A stretch of 36,615 bases of DNA from a bacterium (GTDB lineage: Bacteria; Cyanobacteriota; Vampirovibrionia; Gastranaerophilales; Gastranaerophilaceae). The stretch is taken from NCBI GenBank assembly GCA_017629215.1, contig JAGBXP010000041.1, forward strand, positions 1 through 36,615, written 5' to 3'. The translations under genes and the position numbers were made by a program. The notes below the pieces were generated by a model that had not been told where the DNA came from, made no database searches, and worked only from the letters and a program-made list of their open reading frames with translations. Below are positions 2,179 through 10,167 of the stretch, piece by piece. Every line of letters starts with the position of its first letter. Positions within the stretch are counted from its first letter, which is position 1.

Positions 2179-2265
2179 TTTAATTTTTTGTTTTTTGTAA
2201 AAAATCACTTCCAAAATTCAGATAAAAATCATCAATTTTCGTAACAAAACTTCACAATATCCTCC

Positions 2266-2283
2266 ATTGTAACGATTTGTAAA
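2266..2283 (-). promoter_or_regulatory. HLR1-like direct-repeat box, RiPP promoter 1
   Basis: The coding strand reads ATTGTAACGATTTGTAAA; the other strand gives TTTACAAA-TC-GTTACAAT, a full match to the HLR1 consensus. Its centre is about 50 bp upstream of the predicted start of transcription, the position typical of an activator site next to -35. A lone GTTACGAA half-site lies further upstream near 2234-2241. Confidence 0.55.
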
Positions 2284-2312
2284 GATGAGTTTTCAAGAGG
2301 CTAAAATTCAGT

Positions 2313-2318
2313 TATAAT
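2313..2318 (+). promoter_or_regulatory. -10 box of RiPP precursor 1
   Basis: TATAAT, aligned with TACAAT in the second copy. The -35 region is poor (TTTTCA at 2290-2295), as expected for an activator-dependent promoter. Transcription should start near 2325, at the first ATATG unit. Confidence 0.6.
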
Positions 2319-2323
2319 GCCCT

Positions 2324-2348
2324 ATATGATATGATATGATATGATATG
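2324..2348 (+). repeat. (ATATG)5 tandem repeat at the predicted transcription start
   Basis: Five exact ATATG units run from the predicted start of transcription. The second copy (9868-9887) has four units plus a variant ATGTG. Each unit creates the minimal frame ATG-ATA-TGA, and each TGA overlaps the next ATG. Confidence 0.85.
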
Positions 2349-2415
2349 AGGTGAATTGTATTTTAGCATTAAAGTTTTCTAAAAACATGCCGTATACTAA
2401 AGATGTATAGCATTA

Positions 2416-2435
2416 GTCGGAATAAGTTTTCCGAC
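2416..2435 (+). promoter_or_regulatory. Leader hairpin before the precursor ribosome site, copy 1
   Basis: Stem GTCGGAA / TTCCGAC (7 bp) closes the loop TAAGTT. The second leader has the same loop TAAGTT on a different but fully paired stem (AGAGA / TCTCT). The hairpin ends about 10 bases before the AAAGG ribosome site. Confidence 0.75.
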
Positions 2436-2459
2436 ACAAGTAAAGAAAGGAAACTATTT

Positions 2460-2660
2460 ATGGAATTTTTCGAAATTGACATGCAGAATGATTTTTTAGC
2501 CGCAAACATTGGTGGTGGTTATGTTTGTACTAAAGGTAAGCAATTTAAAGAAGAATCCTGTCATGACTATTGTGTTAATATTAAACTTAACACAGCTTGT
2601 GCAGTGAATAAACCAACCATGCCTGTTAAACCGGTTAATGGACCTAATACAATTAGATAG
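2460..2660 (+). CDS. RiPP precursor peptide 1 (four Cys, radical-SAM modified)
   Basis: A 66-residue peptide starting at ATG 2460, chosen because AAAGG (2446-2450) lies nine bases upstream and the same start is conserved in the second locus. A longer frame from 2403 would run through the leader hairpin and is unlikely. The N-terminus MEFFEIDMQNDF matches MKFFDLELNGLS of the second precursor and is probably the leader that the maturases recognise. After GGG (18-20) the presumed core carries Cys at 23, 34, 38 and 47 and a Pro/Asn-rich tail. QFKEESC (28-34) resembles QYFKENC of the second precursor. Two radical-SAM/SPASM enzymes follow, so Cys-centred cross-links (sactipeptide or ranthipeptide type) are the likely modification. 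The cleavage site and product are unknown. Confidence 0.8.
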   Translation: MEFFEIDMQNDFLAANIGGGYVCTKGKQFKEESCHDYCVNIKLNTACAVNKPTMPVKPVNGPNTIR

Positions 2661-2670
2661 TTATTATTTT

Positions 2671-2704
2671 AAAGAGCTTGGGTGTTTTTACCCAAGCTCT
2701 TTTT
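2671..2704 (+). terminator. Terminator or attenuator between precursor and maturases
   Basis: Stem AAAGAGCTTGGGT (2671-2683), a six-base loop and ACCCAAGCTCTTT, then a T run. It sits 10 bases after the precursor stop and 33 bases before the first maturase, so it probably lets the precursor be made in excess, with partial read-through into the enzymes. Confidence 0.85.
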
Positions 2705-2736
2705 ACCTTATATATATTTGTGGAGAGAGATTTTTT

Positions 2737-4020
2737 ATGAAGTTTAGTCAATATAATTTAGTGATAGGTATGCCTTATGGAAAAATGGTATATAACTTAA
2801 AGACTCATAAAGGTTTTAAATTAAAAGATGTTTTAGTTGAAGAAATGGAGCATTTTAATTCTTTATTTAATGGCGATACACCATTGTTACCAGAAGATAA
2901 TATGGTAAAAGAGCTATATAAGAGAGGTTTTGTAGTTGATGATGATAGAGATGAGTTTCAAGAAGTACAGGATGAAGTAAACGAGATAACTACAAGATCA
3001 AAATCTACTCAAAATATTATATTGCATGTTACAGAAAATTGTAATTTTAGTTGTGAATATTGTTTTAAGAAATCTCATCCTCAAAATTTTTCTGATGAAA
3101 ATTGGGATAATTTATTGAATTATTTTGAAAAAGTTGTAGAAGATGAAAATTTATATAAAAGAGTAAGATTAACATTTTACGGTGGTGAGCCATTATTAAG
3201 AAGTCAAAAAATAATTGATTTTATGAAAAAGGCGAATAAAGTATTTGAAAAAAATAAAGAAAAAAGTATAGATTATAATATGATAACCAACGGTTATTTA
3301 TTATCTAAAGATATTTATCATCAACTTGTAGATTTAGGATTAGGATTCTTTATGATAACACTTGATGGTTTTGCAGAACAGCATAACAAATCTAGACCTC
3401 GAGTTGATGGAGAAGGAACTTGGGATAAGATAGTTGAGAATTTGAAGTATATTAATACTGTTGAGGACGAAGCTGTATTTTTAATACGTTCTAATTGTAA
3501 TAATAAAAATATTGAAATTATGGAAGAATTTAAGGCATGGGTAAAATCAACATTTAATCCAAAGAAATTTTCTATTGATATAGTTCCAGTAACTAAATAT
3601 TCTGAAATGGTCGAAGACTCTTTATTAATGGATTGTTTCTCAGAAGAATTCCTTAAAGTTAGGCATCCTCAAAATTATACAAAAGAAGAAATTTTTAAAT
3701 TTTTCACCTTTATGGGTTTAGCTTGTAAATATGCTTATGGTAACTTTATTACTATATCTAGTTTAGGTAAGGTATTTATGTGTGAAGAGAGTGATGAGGA
3801 TGATGTTTATTTAGCAGATTTAGTTAAAGAAGGGATTATATATAAACAAGATTTAAATAAGTGGTTAAATCGTTTAGTGGACGATAAATGCCGTAAGTGT
3901 ATATTATTTCCTACTTGTACAGCTCGTCATTGTTTAAGATGTAAAAAATGTGAATTAGCTTATGAAGGTTTAGCAAAAGCTATAGAAAAAATTAAGAAGC
4001 ATGGTATTGATTTGGTATAA
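2737..4020 (+). CDS. Radical SAM/SPASM peptide maturase A
   Basis: A 427-residue enzyme that should use S-adenosylmethionine and iron-sulfur clusters to modify the adjacent precursor. ATG 2737 is chosen because GGAGAGAG lies upstream and the protein then begins MKFSQYN, matching MKFSKYN of the second maturase; an in-frame extension back to 2638 would run through the terminator. The radical-SAM motif is C102-x3-C106-x2-C109, followed by GGEP at 149-152. The SPASM region has C330-x13-G-x4-C349 and then C385, C388, C394, C399, C402 and C405, ligands for auxiliary clusters. The N-terminal 90 residues, with a 'KFSxYN...YN' pattern, resemble the recognition region of Cys-rich-peptide maturases. The next gene starts nine bases after the stop. 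The exact bond formed cannot be read from sequence. Confidence 0.9.
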   Translation: MKFSQYNLVIGMPYGKMVYNLKTHKGFKLKDVLVEEMEHFNSLFNGDTPLLPEDNMVKELYKRGFVVDDDRDEFQEVQDEVNEITTRSKSTQNIILHVTENCNFSCEYCFKKSHPQNFSDENWDNLLNYFEKVVEDENLYKRVRLTFYGGEPLLRSQKIIDFMKKANKVFEKNKEKSIDYNMITNGYLLSKDIYHQLVDLGLGFFMITLDGFAEQHNKSRPRVDGEGTWDKIVENLKYINTVEDEAVFLIRSNCNNKNIEIMEEFKAWVKSTFNPKKFSIDIVPVTKYSEMVEDSLLMDCFSEEFLKVRHPQNYTKEEIFKFFTFMGLACKYAYGNFITISSLGKVFMCEESDEDDVYLADLVKEGIIYKQDLNKWLNRLVDDKCRKCILFPTCTARHCLRCKKCELAYEGLAKAIEKIKKHGIDLV

Positions 4021-4029
4021 CGAGGATTT

Positions 4030-5340
4030 ATGAAATTTAGTAAATATAATATAGTAGAAGAAACAGAAAAAGCTTTAGTAATATTTAATCCATTGTATTC
4101 AAATTATGTCAAAATAACAACAGATGCTGATATAAAAAAGTTTAATAATTTGCTAGAAACAAAGATTTTTGATATTGCTGATCCGATGGTTAAAGCTCTT
4201 TATCAACGGAATTATATAATAGATAAAGAAATAGATGAGTATGAGGTCGCATTAAATAAGGTAAATGAATATGTAAAGGGTTTTGATAAAAAATGTACAC
4301 TTTTATTATATGTAACTGAGCAATGCAATTTTAGATGTATATATTGTCCTGAGGATCATGTTAATAAGAGGTTTTCTGAAGAGAATTGGGACTCTCTATA
4401 TAGGCATATAGAGAAGAATGTAAGAAACGGTCAGTATGAGTTTGTTCGTATAAGTTTTTTTGGTGGAGAGCCCTTATTAGAAACATCATCTATATTAAAA
4501 TTTTTAGATAGATTGGAATTGTTAAAGAATGAGTATCCAGAAGTTGTATTTAAACATGAAATGACAACAAATGGTTATTTGTTAACTCCAGAAATATATG
4601 ACAAATTAACAAGATATAATGTTAAACATTATCAGATTACAATTGATGGATTTGCTGATGTGCATAATAAAACACGTCCATTAGTTAATGGTGGTGGAAC
4701 ATGGGAACGTATTATTGAGAATTTGAAATATATTAATACAAAAGATGATAATGTAACAATAAATTTTCGAGCTAATATAAGTCCATTAAATCAAGATAGT
4801 ATTCAAGAATTTATGGATTGGTCAATGCAAACTTTTGATAACAAGAAGTTTACCTTTAGTGCAGTAACGGTTATTGCAAATACTGAAAATGTGCCAGAGG
4901 AGTTGGCGACTGATTATCAATCAAAAGAGTATCAAGAAATAGATACGTTTATGAATCATTCTAATAGGGGGTTTAGCAAAGAAGAAGTAAAACCTTTGAA
5001 GCTTTTAGGATTTTCTTGTCGTTATGCGACTAAAAATTTTTATACAATAACAACTGATGGCTATATTTCTAAATGTGGCGAGGCCGCATTTGGACTAACC
5101 GAGGTTGTTGGTAAATTACTTCCAGATGGAGATTTTGAATTTTTTGATAATTACATAGATTGGACTGAAGGGTTTGAAATAGAAGCTTGCAAAGACTGTA
5201 ACGTATATCCGCTATGTGGAGCGAGAAGTTGTTTGTATAAGAAGGTTCATTCAGATGAGCAAGGACGTATGGATTGTAGTTTTATGCAAGAACATAAACA
5301 AATGATTGGAAAGTATATAAGAGATGGTTTGCTAGGTTAG
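4030..5340 (+). CDS. Radical SAM/SPASM peptide maturase B
   Basis: A 436-residue paralogue of the preceding enzyme, with the same N-terminal pattern (MKFSKYN), the radical-SAM cluster motif C99-x3-C103-x2-C106 and GGEP at 145-148. The SPASM cysteines are C330-x13-G-x4-C349, then C387, C390, C396, C401 and C416. C330 and C349 fall at the same residue numbers in both proteins. The stretch FAxxHNKxRPxVxGxGTW is shared almost word for word, so the pair arose by duplication. It differs from maturase A in lacking the extra C-terminal LRCKKC cluster and in having a longer insert between residues 350 and 385. Two diverged enzymes in one operon suggest two different modifications, or one enzyme per precursor. 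GAGG lies just upstream of the ATG. Confidence 0.9.
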   Translation: MKFSKYNIVEETEKALVIFNPLYSNYVKITTDADIKKFNNLLETKIFDIADPMVKALYQRNYIIDKEIDEYEVALNKVNEYVKGFDKKCTLLLYVTEQCNFRCIYCPEDHVNKRFSEENWDSLYRHIEKNVRNGQYEFVRISFFGGEPLLETSSILKFLDRLELLKNEYPEVVFKHEMTTNGYLLTPEIYDKLTRYNVKHYQITIDGFADVHNKTRPLVNGGGTWERIIENLKYINTKDDNVTINFRANISPLNQDSIQEFMDWSMQTFDNKKFTFSAVTVIANTENVPEELATDYQSKEYQEIDTFMNHSNRGFSKEEVKPLKLLGFSCRYATKNFYTITTDGYISKCGEAAFGLTEVVGKLLPDGDFEFFDNYIDWTEGFEIEACKDCNVYPLCGARSCLYKKVHSDEQGRMDCSFMQEHKQMIGKYIRDGLLG

Positions 5341-5388
5341 TTTTTAGTAAATTTGTAATAGTTAACAAAGCCAATAGGAAAATTATAG

Positions 5389-5423
5389 AGACCATAACAA
5401 ATTTTATCATTTGTTATGGTCTT
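5389..5423. terminator. Terminator after the maturase operon
   Basis: A perfect 13-bp stem, AGACCATAACAAA (5389-5401) with TTTGTTATGGTCT (5410-5422), and an eight-base loop. It lies between the end of maturase B and the convergent serA gene and may serve both. The T run on the plus strand is weak. Confidence 0.7.
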
Positions 5424-8365: not shown

Positions 8366-8492
8366 ACTTTGTAGATAATGTCTTGAAAGTCAAGGAATAT
8401 TTTTCTTGGGGAAAAATGTATATTTTAAGCAAGCAAAACTAGGGTGCTTAATGCATCCTAGTTTTTGATATTTAATTGTTCAAATTATGCAA
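8366..8492. repeat. Repeat A: 3' flank of the IS110 transposase, copy also at 10195-10317
   Basis: About 120 bp starting ACTTTGTAG and running through TTGAAAGTCAA and TTGGG-GAAAAA to a hairpin at 8435-8465. The same order of blocks occurs at 10195-10317 at roughly three-quarters identity by eye. It overlaps the last codons of the transposase. It may be the right end of the element or a shared terminator. Confidence 0.65.
8435..8465. terminator. Hairpin in repeat A, probable terminator of the transposase
   Basis: AAAACTAGGGTGC (8435-8447) pairs with GCATCCTAGTTTT (8453-8465) with one G-T pair. The equivalent hairpin in repeat B (10266-10296) is also 31 bases long but has two changed stem pairs that remain paired. 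It could terminate from either side. Confidence 0.6.
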
Positions 8493-9489
8493 TTTTTACA
8501 GAATTTTTGTTGTAACAAGAAATATGATTTTCTTCATAAGGTTTTTGAGAGTTTAAAATAGCACAAGCTATAACAAGCAATTTTCTTGCAACAGCAATTA
8601 ATGCCAATTTTTTAGGCTTACCTTTATTAACCAAATGTAAATAAAAATCAGACATTTTTGCATTATGACGAATTGCAACCAAAGCTGCCATATAGAGCAT
8701 ATTTCTTACTCTAGGGTTACCAAATTTTGTTATTCTTGGCTTATTCCAAACACTACTTCCGGATTCCATTTCTCTAACATCAAGTCCAAAGAATGCAGTT
8801 AATCTTTTTGAATTATACGTACCATATTCATCTTTGTAAATTTCAGAAATAAGTACATTGCTAACACGTTTTCCAAATGAAGGAATAGAATTAAGTAATT
8901 CGTATTCTTTGTTTATTTCAGGATAATTATCGTAATAGTACTTTATTTCTTTTTCGGTTTCTGCTATGGTATTGTCGATTGAATTTAAAGTGGCTTTGAC
9001 CACGCGGGCTGCAGCTTCTGTATTGAATGTTTGCAGCCTTACTTTTTGCATAATTCTTAATTCGACAAGATTATCCATTAATCTTGATAAATCTCTCAAC
9101 TCACGTCTTTCTTTGGATTGAGGAGAAAAAGGTCTAGGACTCCGTTCTTTGCAAAATTCTGCAAGAATTTTAGCGTCTGTTTTGTCATTTTTTGTTTTAA
9201 CCAATGATTTTGCAAAAGATTTTACTATTCTTGGATTAACAACGCTGACTTTGTAATTTTTGTTTTCCAATAAAGTAAAAGCTAACAGCTCGTGATAGAC
9301 ATTAATTGCCTCCAAGCAAAAATGGACAAAAGCGTCTTTTTCTAATTTGCTTTTAATCCAATCTTGAAGAAAATTCCCCCCTTCATTACTGTTTTCAACA
9401 ACTTTGTAATGAAATTTTTCTTGAGCTAATAACATCACATCTAGTTTCTTTTTAGAAACATCGATACCACAATAGAATTTGTTATTCAT
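8485..9489 (-). CDS. IS110-family transposase (DEDD type)
   Basis: A 334-residue recombinase that moves its element, in this family guided by a structured bridge RNA. The N-terminal RuvC-like domain shows D10 (GIDVSKKKLDV), E60 (FCLEAINVYHE), and D102 and D105 (KNDKTDAKILAEF). The C-terminal Transposase_20 domain has the helix-hairpin-helix text SIPSFGKRVS (201-210) and the serine motif ESGSSVWNKPRITKFGN (242-258). The frame is intact, so the gene could be active. ATG 9489 is chosen because AGAAAGGAG ends just upstream; a TTG at 9513 lies before that site. It is inserted between the serine operon and the second RiPP precursor. Confidence 0.93.
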   Translation of the reverse strand: MNNKFYCGIDVSKKKLDVMLLAQEKFHYKVVENSNEGGNFLQDWIKSKLEKDAFVHFCLEAINVYHELLAFTLLENKNYKVSVVNPRIVKSFAKSLVKTKNDKTDAKILAEFCKERSPRPFSPQSKERRELRDLSRLMDNLVELRIMQKVRLQTFNTEAAARVVKATLNSIDNTIAETEKEIKYYYDNYPEINKEYELLNSIPSFGKRVSNVLISEIYKDEYGTYNSKRLTAFFGLDVREMESGSSVWNKPRITKFGNPRVRNMLYMAALVAIRHNAKMSDFYLHLVNKGKPKKLALIAVARKLLVIACAILNSQKPYEENHISCYNKNSVKIA

Positions 9490-9640
9490 AGAACTCCTTT
9501 CTGAATTAATCAAACGGTCCGTTCTTGTGTAAAACTTTGCTTACCTTGTAAATACGAGTTTTTATCACTCTCGAGATAATGTTCAGCTTAAAAGAATTAC
9601 AAACGGGGACTTATCTACAAAACAGTCTTAAACACTTTGG
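9490..9640 (-). ncRNA. Candidate bridge-RNA region upstream of the IS110 transposase
   Basis: Non-coding DNA between the transposase start and the presumed left end, with short hairpins on the minus strand (AACGG/CCGTT at 9513-9523; CGAG/CTCG at 9555-9573). In the IS110 subgroup the bridge RNA comes from this end. No bridge-RNA loops could be confirmed by eye, so the call rests on position only. Confidence 0.25.
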
Positions 9641-9810
9641 GTGGGTACAGTTTTATTCCGTTTTTTAATTCATTTTTATTCTACTATTTTTTACAAATTC
9701 ATGATACAAGGCTGGGTGAAACCCACCAATAATACAAAATTAAAAAAAATTACCTTCAAATTTCATACAATAATCATCAATTTTCGTAACAAAACTTCAC
9801 AAAACAAGCA

Positions 9811-9828
9811 ATTGTAACGATTTGTAAA
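9811..9828 (-). promoter_or_regulatory. HLR1-like direct-repeat box, RiPP promoter 2
   Basis: The 18 bases are identical to the box at 2266-2283 and match the HLR1 consensus fully on the minus strand. It is centred about 50 bp before the predicted start of transcription. Confidence 0.55.
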
Positions 9829-9856
9829 GACGAGTTTTAAGAGGTTCAAATCCAGT

Positions 9857-9862
9857 TACAAT
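9857..9862 (+). promoter_or_regulatory. -10 box of RiPP precursor 2
   Basis: TACAAT, aligned with TATAAT at 2313-2318. Transcription should start near 9869, at the first ATATG unit. Confidence 0.55.
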
Positions 9863-9867
9863 GCGCT

Positions 9868-9892
9868 ATATGATATGATATGATATGATGTG
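9868..9892 (+). repeat. (ATATG)4 plus ATGTG tandem repeat
   Basis: Four exact ATATG units, then ATGTG and ATGGG. It occupies the same place as the five-unit repeat of the first leader, so the unit number differs between the two copies. Confidence 0.8.
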
Positions 9893-9955
9893 ATGGGTCT
9901 CTTTTCATTAAAGTTTTCTGAAAAAATGCCGTTATAAAGTATGTATAGTAATAAT

Positions 9956-9971
9956 AGAGATAAGTTTCTCT
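9956..9971 (+). promoter_or_regulatory. Leader hairpin before the precursor ribosome site, copy 2
   Basis: Stem AGAGA / TCTCT with loop TAAGTT, the same loop as the first leader on a stem of different sequence. It lies 13 bases before AAAGG (9984-9988). Confidence 0.75.
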
Positions 9972-9999
9972 GTACAAGCAACGAAAGGAAACAAAACGT

Positions 10000-10167
10000 A
10001 TGAAATTTTTTGATTTAGAGCTTAATGGGTTATCAGTCGAAATGATTAATTTGAATTCTAGTGGTTCGTTATCGAAAGCTTCTTCGAAGAAACCGGAGCC
10101 ATTTTTTAATCATACTACTCGTTGTATACAATATTTTAAAGAGAATTGCAATAAAGATGCTTTATAA
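10000..10167 (+). CDS. RiPP precursor peptide 2 (orphan, two Cys)
   Basis: A 55-residue peptide from ATG 10000 to TAA 10167, too short for many gene finders. AAAGGAAAC lies upstream exactly as in the first locus. The N-terminus MKFFDLELNGLSVEM aligns with MEFFEIDMQNDF of precursor 1. The middle is Ser/Lys-rich (20-31), followed by KPEPFFNHTT and the motif CIQYFKENC with Cys at 42 and 50, matching QFKEESC of precursor 1. There is no GGG and there are only two Cys, so the product would differ. No maturase, protease or transporter gene lies next to it; modification would have to be done in trans, most simply by the enzymes at 2737-5340. It could also be a decaying duplicate, but the frame, ribosome site and shared motif are intact. 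Confidence 0.75.
   Translation: MKFFDLELNGLSVEMINLNSSGSLSKASSKKPEPFFNHTTRCIQYFKENCNKDAL

Follow-up and report, generated by a model that had tools for sequence, protein, structure and literature searches.

In a 36,615-nucleotide stretch of DNA (the window) from a member of the Gastranaerophilales, a gene for a short, cysteine-containing peptide stands upstream of two genes for radical S-adenosylmethionine (SAM) enzymes of the SPASM type, here called A and B. We consider it likely that this locus is part of a dispersed system for making ribosomally synthesised and post-translationally modified peptides (RiPPs), guided by a common leader, probably linking cysteines through thioethers and working partly in trans. 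The leader of the window peptide recurs at seven other sites in the same genome and in a precursor of one sister genome (G064), which is also the only other bearer of such enzymes among the 115 relatives searched (65 of them from the same genus, the home genome counted); a wider sample covered 386 genomes of the phylum. The home genome of this non-photosynthetic relative of cyanobacteria is a draft metagenome-assembled genome (MAG) of 1.80 Mb, 98% complete and in 54 contigs, the window being contig 39 (C39). The heart of the locus is made up as follows.

2460 to 2660, forward strand: precursor peptide of 66 residues with leader MEFFEIDMQNDF and cysteines at 23, 34, 38 and 47, an open reading frame (ORF) with a ribosome-binding site
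2671 to 2702, forward strand: strong hairpin with a U-rich 3' side (-22.1 kcal/mol, z -8.4, 0 of 200 shuffled sequences as good)
2737 to 4020, forward strand: radical-SAM/SPASM maturase A (Pfam PF04055, E 1e-16; nearest NCBIfam models below cut-off; sister clade to the paralogue on contig C12)
4030 to 5340, forward strand: radical-SAM/SPASM maturase B (Pfam PF04055, E 2e-21; TIGR04463 at 178.7 bits against a cut-off of 525)

The precursor locus and its two maturases

An initial annotation of this DNA had described a four-cysteine precursor, a hairpin and two adjacent radical-SAM/SPASM genes, all of which are borne out by the ORF, the folding energy and the Pfam domain listed above. The ribosome-binding site of the precursor is a good one (AAAGGA at 2446-2451). 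That the peptide fits no family that can be named also holds: searches of Pfam and NCBIfam returned no match, and none of the eight precursor types discussed below reaches a cut-off in either collection (a BufA2 match to one of the orphan precursors, at E 0.011 and 15.9 bits against a required 60, was taken as chance). Single-sequence folding of the window precursor was uninformative (pLDDT 55.6).

The order of precursor, hairpin and maturase is found at three loci. In the sister genome, contig C47 encodes a peptide of 61 residues (MEFFEMD...) with five cysteines, equipped with a ribosome-binding site and a hairpin and lying upstream of a pair of enzymes. In the home genome, a further enzyme sits at the edge of contig C12, and the final 141 bases of that contig are shared with the ends of two others, C38 and C14. 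Either of these two places a precursor, MEFFNIEMKETE(I/V)..., 5' of the C12 enzyme, with a hairpin between. The hairpin that separates precursor and maturases in the window, probably a leaky terminator, thus has equivalents at both loci.

A and B, both full-length, are paralogues that share 34% of 408 aligned residues. Each has a radical-SAM domain with the CX3CX2C motif and a seven-cysteine SPASM region, which places them in the radical-SAM/SPASM class, and C330 and C349, whose common spacing had been pointed out before, are indeed in register. In B, the SPASM cysteines are found at 330, 349, 387, 390, 396, 401 and 416; in A, cysteines in this region occupy 330, 349, 385, 388, 394, 399, 402 and 405. 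The initial annotation counted both C402 and C405 as extra cysteines of A. The first does appear to be surplus, but C405 is probably the seventh ligand, placed on a shortened loop and corresponding to C416 of B, because the C12 paralogue has an equivalent of C405 only and none of C402.

Enzymes of this family are held, among the relatives searched, by the home genome and G064 only, to which the phylum sample added a distant relative from the same family (G134). The home genome has four of them (A, B, C12 and C21, spread over contigs C39, C12 and C21) and G064 three (two in tandem on C47, the third on C95). In a tree, these seven form a group that excludes five outside sequences (100/100); within it, A pairs with C12 (100/100) and C21 with C95 (98/99). 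A contig scan with A alone as the query gave no match; with an alignment of the maturases, its only matches were two loci of the sister MAG and five distant ones, and plasmids yielded distant relatives only, 25-29% identical among the matches listed. Two of the distant loci (L052 and L057), which have ACP-like and subtilisin-like proteins alongside, look like another system and were set aside. A radical-SAM/SPASM gene, an ACP-like protein and a subtilisin-like protease in fact stand in a row at L057/L060 (G134:C39, a Gastranaerophilales-family genome) and, in Clostridia, at L052 and L053, an arrangement that is probably a separate peptide system.

Why should one precursor be accompanied by two paralogous enzymes? 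The initial annotation suggested two modifications; it is equally possible that A and B form a cooperating pair. For thuricin CD, two radical-SAM maturases, TrnC and TrnD, act as a complex with a single catalytic partner (PMC12093266), and if A and B did likewise, this would be a variant of our reading rather than its competitor. The adjacency and kinship of A and B and the likewise adjacent pair on sister contig C47 fit such a complex. Against it, both proteins retain the CX3CX2C motif together with the SPASM cysteines, and the enzymes on C12, C21 and C95 each stand singly, so that a partner is not needed by every member. On balance we regard the complex as possible, though not as the expected arrangement.

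As to the chemistry, neither A, B nor any other paralogue scores above a curated NCBIfam cut-off (TIGR04463, CefB, Clo7bot, geopeptide, PapB, SCIFF). B comes closest to TIGR04463, CefB and Clo7bot, and A to geopeptide, CefB and TIGR04463. The predicted structure of B (mean pLDDT 78.6) matches CteB, a ranthipeptide maturase with thioether chemistry (PMC8326336), over almost its whole length (Z 20.9, residues 4-435); anSME matches its radical-SAM/SPASM part (Z 21.5, residues 87-436). Residues 8-83 form three strands followed by three helices in the full-length model. On the strength of this model, B would seem to share with CteB an architecture of RiPP recognition element (RRE), radical-SAM and SPASM domains, with an N-terminal part that is RRE-like.

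We favour thioether formation because every core of the precursors described below contains cysteine while their first 22 residues contain none, and because the enzymes resemble CteB as well as the PapB, TIGR04463 and CefB models. The alternative is that they carry out another radical-SAM reaction, such as C-C crosslinking, epimerisation or cyclopropane formation, with the cysteines serving for disulfides or metal binding. Speaking for this is TigE, an enzyme of other chemistry that also fits the model of B from end to end; its score (Z 19.2) nearly equals that of CteB, so that other chemistries have to be kept in play. Moreover, with all scores below the curated cut-offs, no characterised subfamily can be assigned. 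Yet the nearest named models include maturases of Cys-rich peptides and ranthipeptides (TIGR04463, CefB, PapB), and all cores are conspicuous for cysteine (5.0%, compared with 1.3% in the larger ORFs of the window) and for no other residue type. We therefore judge a different chemistry to be unlikely, while giving it some weight.

Dispersed cassettes with a common leader

Searching the home genome with the DNA upstream of the window precursor yields about 18 substantial copies of a repeat. Besides the query itself, seven copies continue into short ORFs whose leader fits the same pattern: one each on C38, C14, C5 and C31, two on C49, and a second one in the window (C39b). The count of eight leader sites takes C38 and C14 separately; they could be two copies or strain variants. 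The elements of these cassettes that lie in the window are listed below.

2199 to 2354, forward strand: core of the upstream repeat, which is dispersed through the genome and here has the promoter-like hexamers TTTTCA (2290) and TATAAT (ending at 2318) and 5.2 copies of the ATATG pentamer (2324-2349)
2416 to 2435, forward strand: hairpin of 7 pairs in a probable 5' untranslated region, conserved in front of each of the home genome's eight leader ORFs
9744 to 9999, forward strand: a further copy of the upstream repeat (80% identity with the first), carrying the conserved hairpin and, at 9868-9894, ATATG pentamers
10000 to 10167, forward strand: second, orphan precursor (C39b) of 55 residues, with leader MKFFDLELNGLS, cysteines at 42 and 50, the leader pattern and a profile match at E 5.4e-8

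The orphan C39b begins about 4.7 kb downstream of B, past housekeeping genes and a transposase of the IS110 family, which occupies 8485-9513 on the reverse strand and lies directly 5' of the orphan's cassette. Five of the eight precursors (C39b, C5, C31 and both on C49) have no maturase in the flanks read, which extended to at most 1.5 kb.

How specific is the leader? Its consensus is M[KE]FF[DEN][LIM][ED]..., and a degenerate pattern finds it in eight places in the home genome and one in G064; in the other 63 genomes of the genus, where control matches number four, it occurs twice, in neither case at the start of a precursor-like ORF. A leader profile recovers the same eight and one, none in G134, and, in nine complete genus mates without maturases, a single match of E 0.7, which is at chance level; built from these same sequences, the profile is of value for its absence elsewhere. 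The precursor leader thus co-occurs with the maturases, as far as these genomes go. A search with the whole precursor finds no relatives, because the core is not conserved: outside the home genome, the 115 relatives gave only matches of E > 0.008, which we read as chance. Aligned locally, the window and sister precursors make no strong case by themselves (150 of 10,000 shuffles do as well), and the evidence for their kinship is the anchored leader together with the genome-wide counts. The initial annotation had claimed a conserved leader without evidence, and that leader can now be seen in the sister precursor and at eight sites in the home genome; its own test, that the precursor be conserved along with the maturases in relatives, comes out in favour for the leader but not for the core.

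The cassettes consist of promoter-like hexamers, ATATG pentamers, a TTAAAGTTTTC box, the hairpin and a AGAAAGGAAA ribosome-binding site. A promoter scan of the repeat gave no excess over shuffled sequence, and the promoter is a guess from consensus match, position and conservation. Pentamer number varies from 3 to 5 across copies of the repeat, which could tune expression. For the hairpin at 2416-2435, all seven pairs are kept in all eight cassettes (100% of cells paired), four of them having changed on both sides; its covariation score was reached by none of 500 shuffles and slid controls contain no two-sided change. With only eight related rows, the case for an RNA structure is good, though short of overwhelming. 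A match to a snoRNA in Rfam (E 0.31) was taken as chance. A second dispersed intergenic repeat (AAATTCAGGATGACA...) lies just 5' of the window's first cassette, at about 2160-2193, and recurs in intergenic places on contigs C12, C45, C49, C52, C53, C1 and C2.

Comparing cassettes along their length, we find the 140 bases upstream to be 86-96% identical. Over the first 12 codons of the group starting MKFFDLE, the proportion of non-synonymous differences (pN) is 0-0.07 and that of synonymous ones (pS) 0.29-0.60 (sites are few but the six comparisons are consistent); C38 and C14 differ here by three synonymous changes and no amino-acid change. The comparison between C5 and the window precursor crosses leader types and is therefore uninformative (pN 0.22, pS 0.29). 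Past codon 12, most pairs are 43-50% identical in DNA, which is near unrelated sequence. In the one close pair, C5 and C31, the core has 23 non-synonymous and 4 synonymous changes (pN 0.16, pS 0.11) and no stop, pointing in the direction of diversifying selection. At the level of sequence, the pattern is that of a conserved leader and a hypervariable core.

These comparisons bear on two further explanations. If the locus were an ordinary local cluster, A and B would modify the adjacent precursor only, the orphans being decayed or unused duplicates. It is true that only the precursors at 2460, at C12 and on sister contig C47 adjoin maturases, and that these have MEFF leaders, unlike the MKFFDLELGGL(G/A) of the orphans. 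Decay, however, sits badly with orphan ORFs that are intact and retain hairpin and ribosome-binding site, with leaders that differ almost only at synonymous sites, and with the stop-free C5/C31 cores, rich as they are in non-synonymous change. We consider the local cluster improbable. The repeat might, finally, be a mere common promoter module that runs past the start codon, the short ORFs not being RiPP precursors at all; further copies do precede unrelated genes, one of them for an EF-hand protein, but those copies come without the leader, leader codons vary almost only synonymously and the sister genome has the leader without the repeat, making this very improbable.

The non-precursor genes preceded by the upstream repeat (L077, L079, L083-L085, L088, L090, L092) include, beside the EF-hand protein, several without Pfam hits, and the repeat may mark a wider regulon.

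Proposed maturation and export in trans

The initial annotation reported neither transporter nor protease. This is correct for the locus but not for the genome: the genes for the C21 enzyme and for its sister counterpart on C95 each diverge from that of an ABC exporter (membrane and ATPase domains, no C39-type peptidase), and in both genomes an S41 protease with a PDZ domain and, by eye, a signal-peptide-like start follows directly after the exporter. At E <= 1e-60, the exporter is present in the two maturase genomes and in 0 of the other 113, and because it is so confined, it is the probable export route. From its position, we infer S41 to be the leader protease. A C39 peptidase was rejected as the common protease: the home genome has none and the one match in the sister lies on another contig.

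Taken together, the gene content, the co-occurrence, the constraint on the leader and the structural class of B as modelled suggest the following course. A maturase would bind the leader through its RRE-like N-terminal part and act on the Cys-rich core with SAM and its SPASM clusters, most likely installing thioether crosslinks. The hairpin at 2671 would let only part of transcription through (attenuation), so that more peptide than enzyme is made. The orphans would receive their modification in trans, pass through the ABC exporter and, in the periplasm, be cut to size by the S41 protease. In the most far-reaching version, towards which we lean only slightly, the system is combinatorial: an amplifiable module of promoter, structured 5' untranslated region and leader has been fused to unrelated cores across the genome, and a few maturases and one exporter/protease locus serve them all in trans.

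A number of observations weigh against a dispersed system of this kind. Its dispersed state is seen in one draft genome, in which C12 and C21 are assembled up to contig edges and the C12 precursor is split over such edges. Two cores of the orphan or C12 type have only one or two cysteines. The C21/C95 enzyme has no adjoining precursor, and the sister genome, with a single detected precursor, lacks those of the MKFFDLE type. As for the RiPP locus that was first proposed, the conserved leader, its co-occurrence with the maturases, the CteB-like model of B and the gene order at three loci all uphold it, except that it is not self-contained.

Relation to known systems

What the locus has in common with RiPPs in general is a short precursor with leader and core, encoded together with a modifying enzyme. 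In the openly licensed literature we found no paper on the nearest NCBIfam families, only two incidental mentions of radical SAM together with Gastranaerophilales, and no radical-SAM RiPP in this gut lineage. Mining for such RiPPs usually seeks a precursor beside an enzyme, and most of the precursors here would escape it.

In fold, the closest enzyme, going by the model of B, appears to be the ranthipeptide maturase CteB, with its precursor CteA (SCIFF): RRE-like, radical-SAM and SPASM parts would correspond end to end and both systems have cysteine-containing cores. Identity in the structural alignment is only 14-15%, however, the SCIFF model is far below cut-off, as are the other family models tested, and the precursor is unrelated to SCIFF models. 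The best full-length sequence matches are TIGR04463, CefB (NF038107) and Clo7bot (TIGR04334), and CefB-type relatives have the same MKFSKYN start; still, our enzymes reach at most a third of the curated cut-offs. At one CefB-type locus (L055:1947-2728, in a Lachnospiraceae MAG), two long Cys-rich repeat peptides of the GANAGACG type lie directly 5' of the CefB-like maturase, unlike the dispersed leader cassettes found here. Thuricin CD also has two adjacent radical-SAM maturases and cysteine-containing peptides; here, one precursor rather than two accompanies the pair.

In its logic, the system resembles the prochlorosins (ProcA/ProcM), whose precursor genes can be scattered single genes, with a promiscuous enzyme acting at a distance (PMC10783134). 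Conserved leaders, hypervariable cores and scattered precursors are found here too, and the enzyme would likewise act at a distance. The system is not a member of that family, its enzymes being unrelated: those adjacent to precursors are radical SAM, not LanM (LanM was not sought elsewhere in the genome), the leader is not of the Nif11 type, the precursors score above no Pfam or NCBIfam cut-off, and what they have in common is a module of promoter, hairpin and leader. How unrelated cores came to stand behind one such module thereby becomes a testable question. If modification does occur in trans, the maturases accept cores of very different sequence after a single short leader, a property useful in peptide engineering, and the Gastranaerophilales would possess a natural combinatorial peptide library, the radical-SAM counterpart of the prochlorosins in a sister lineage of the cyanobacteria.

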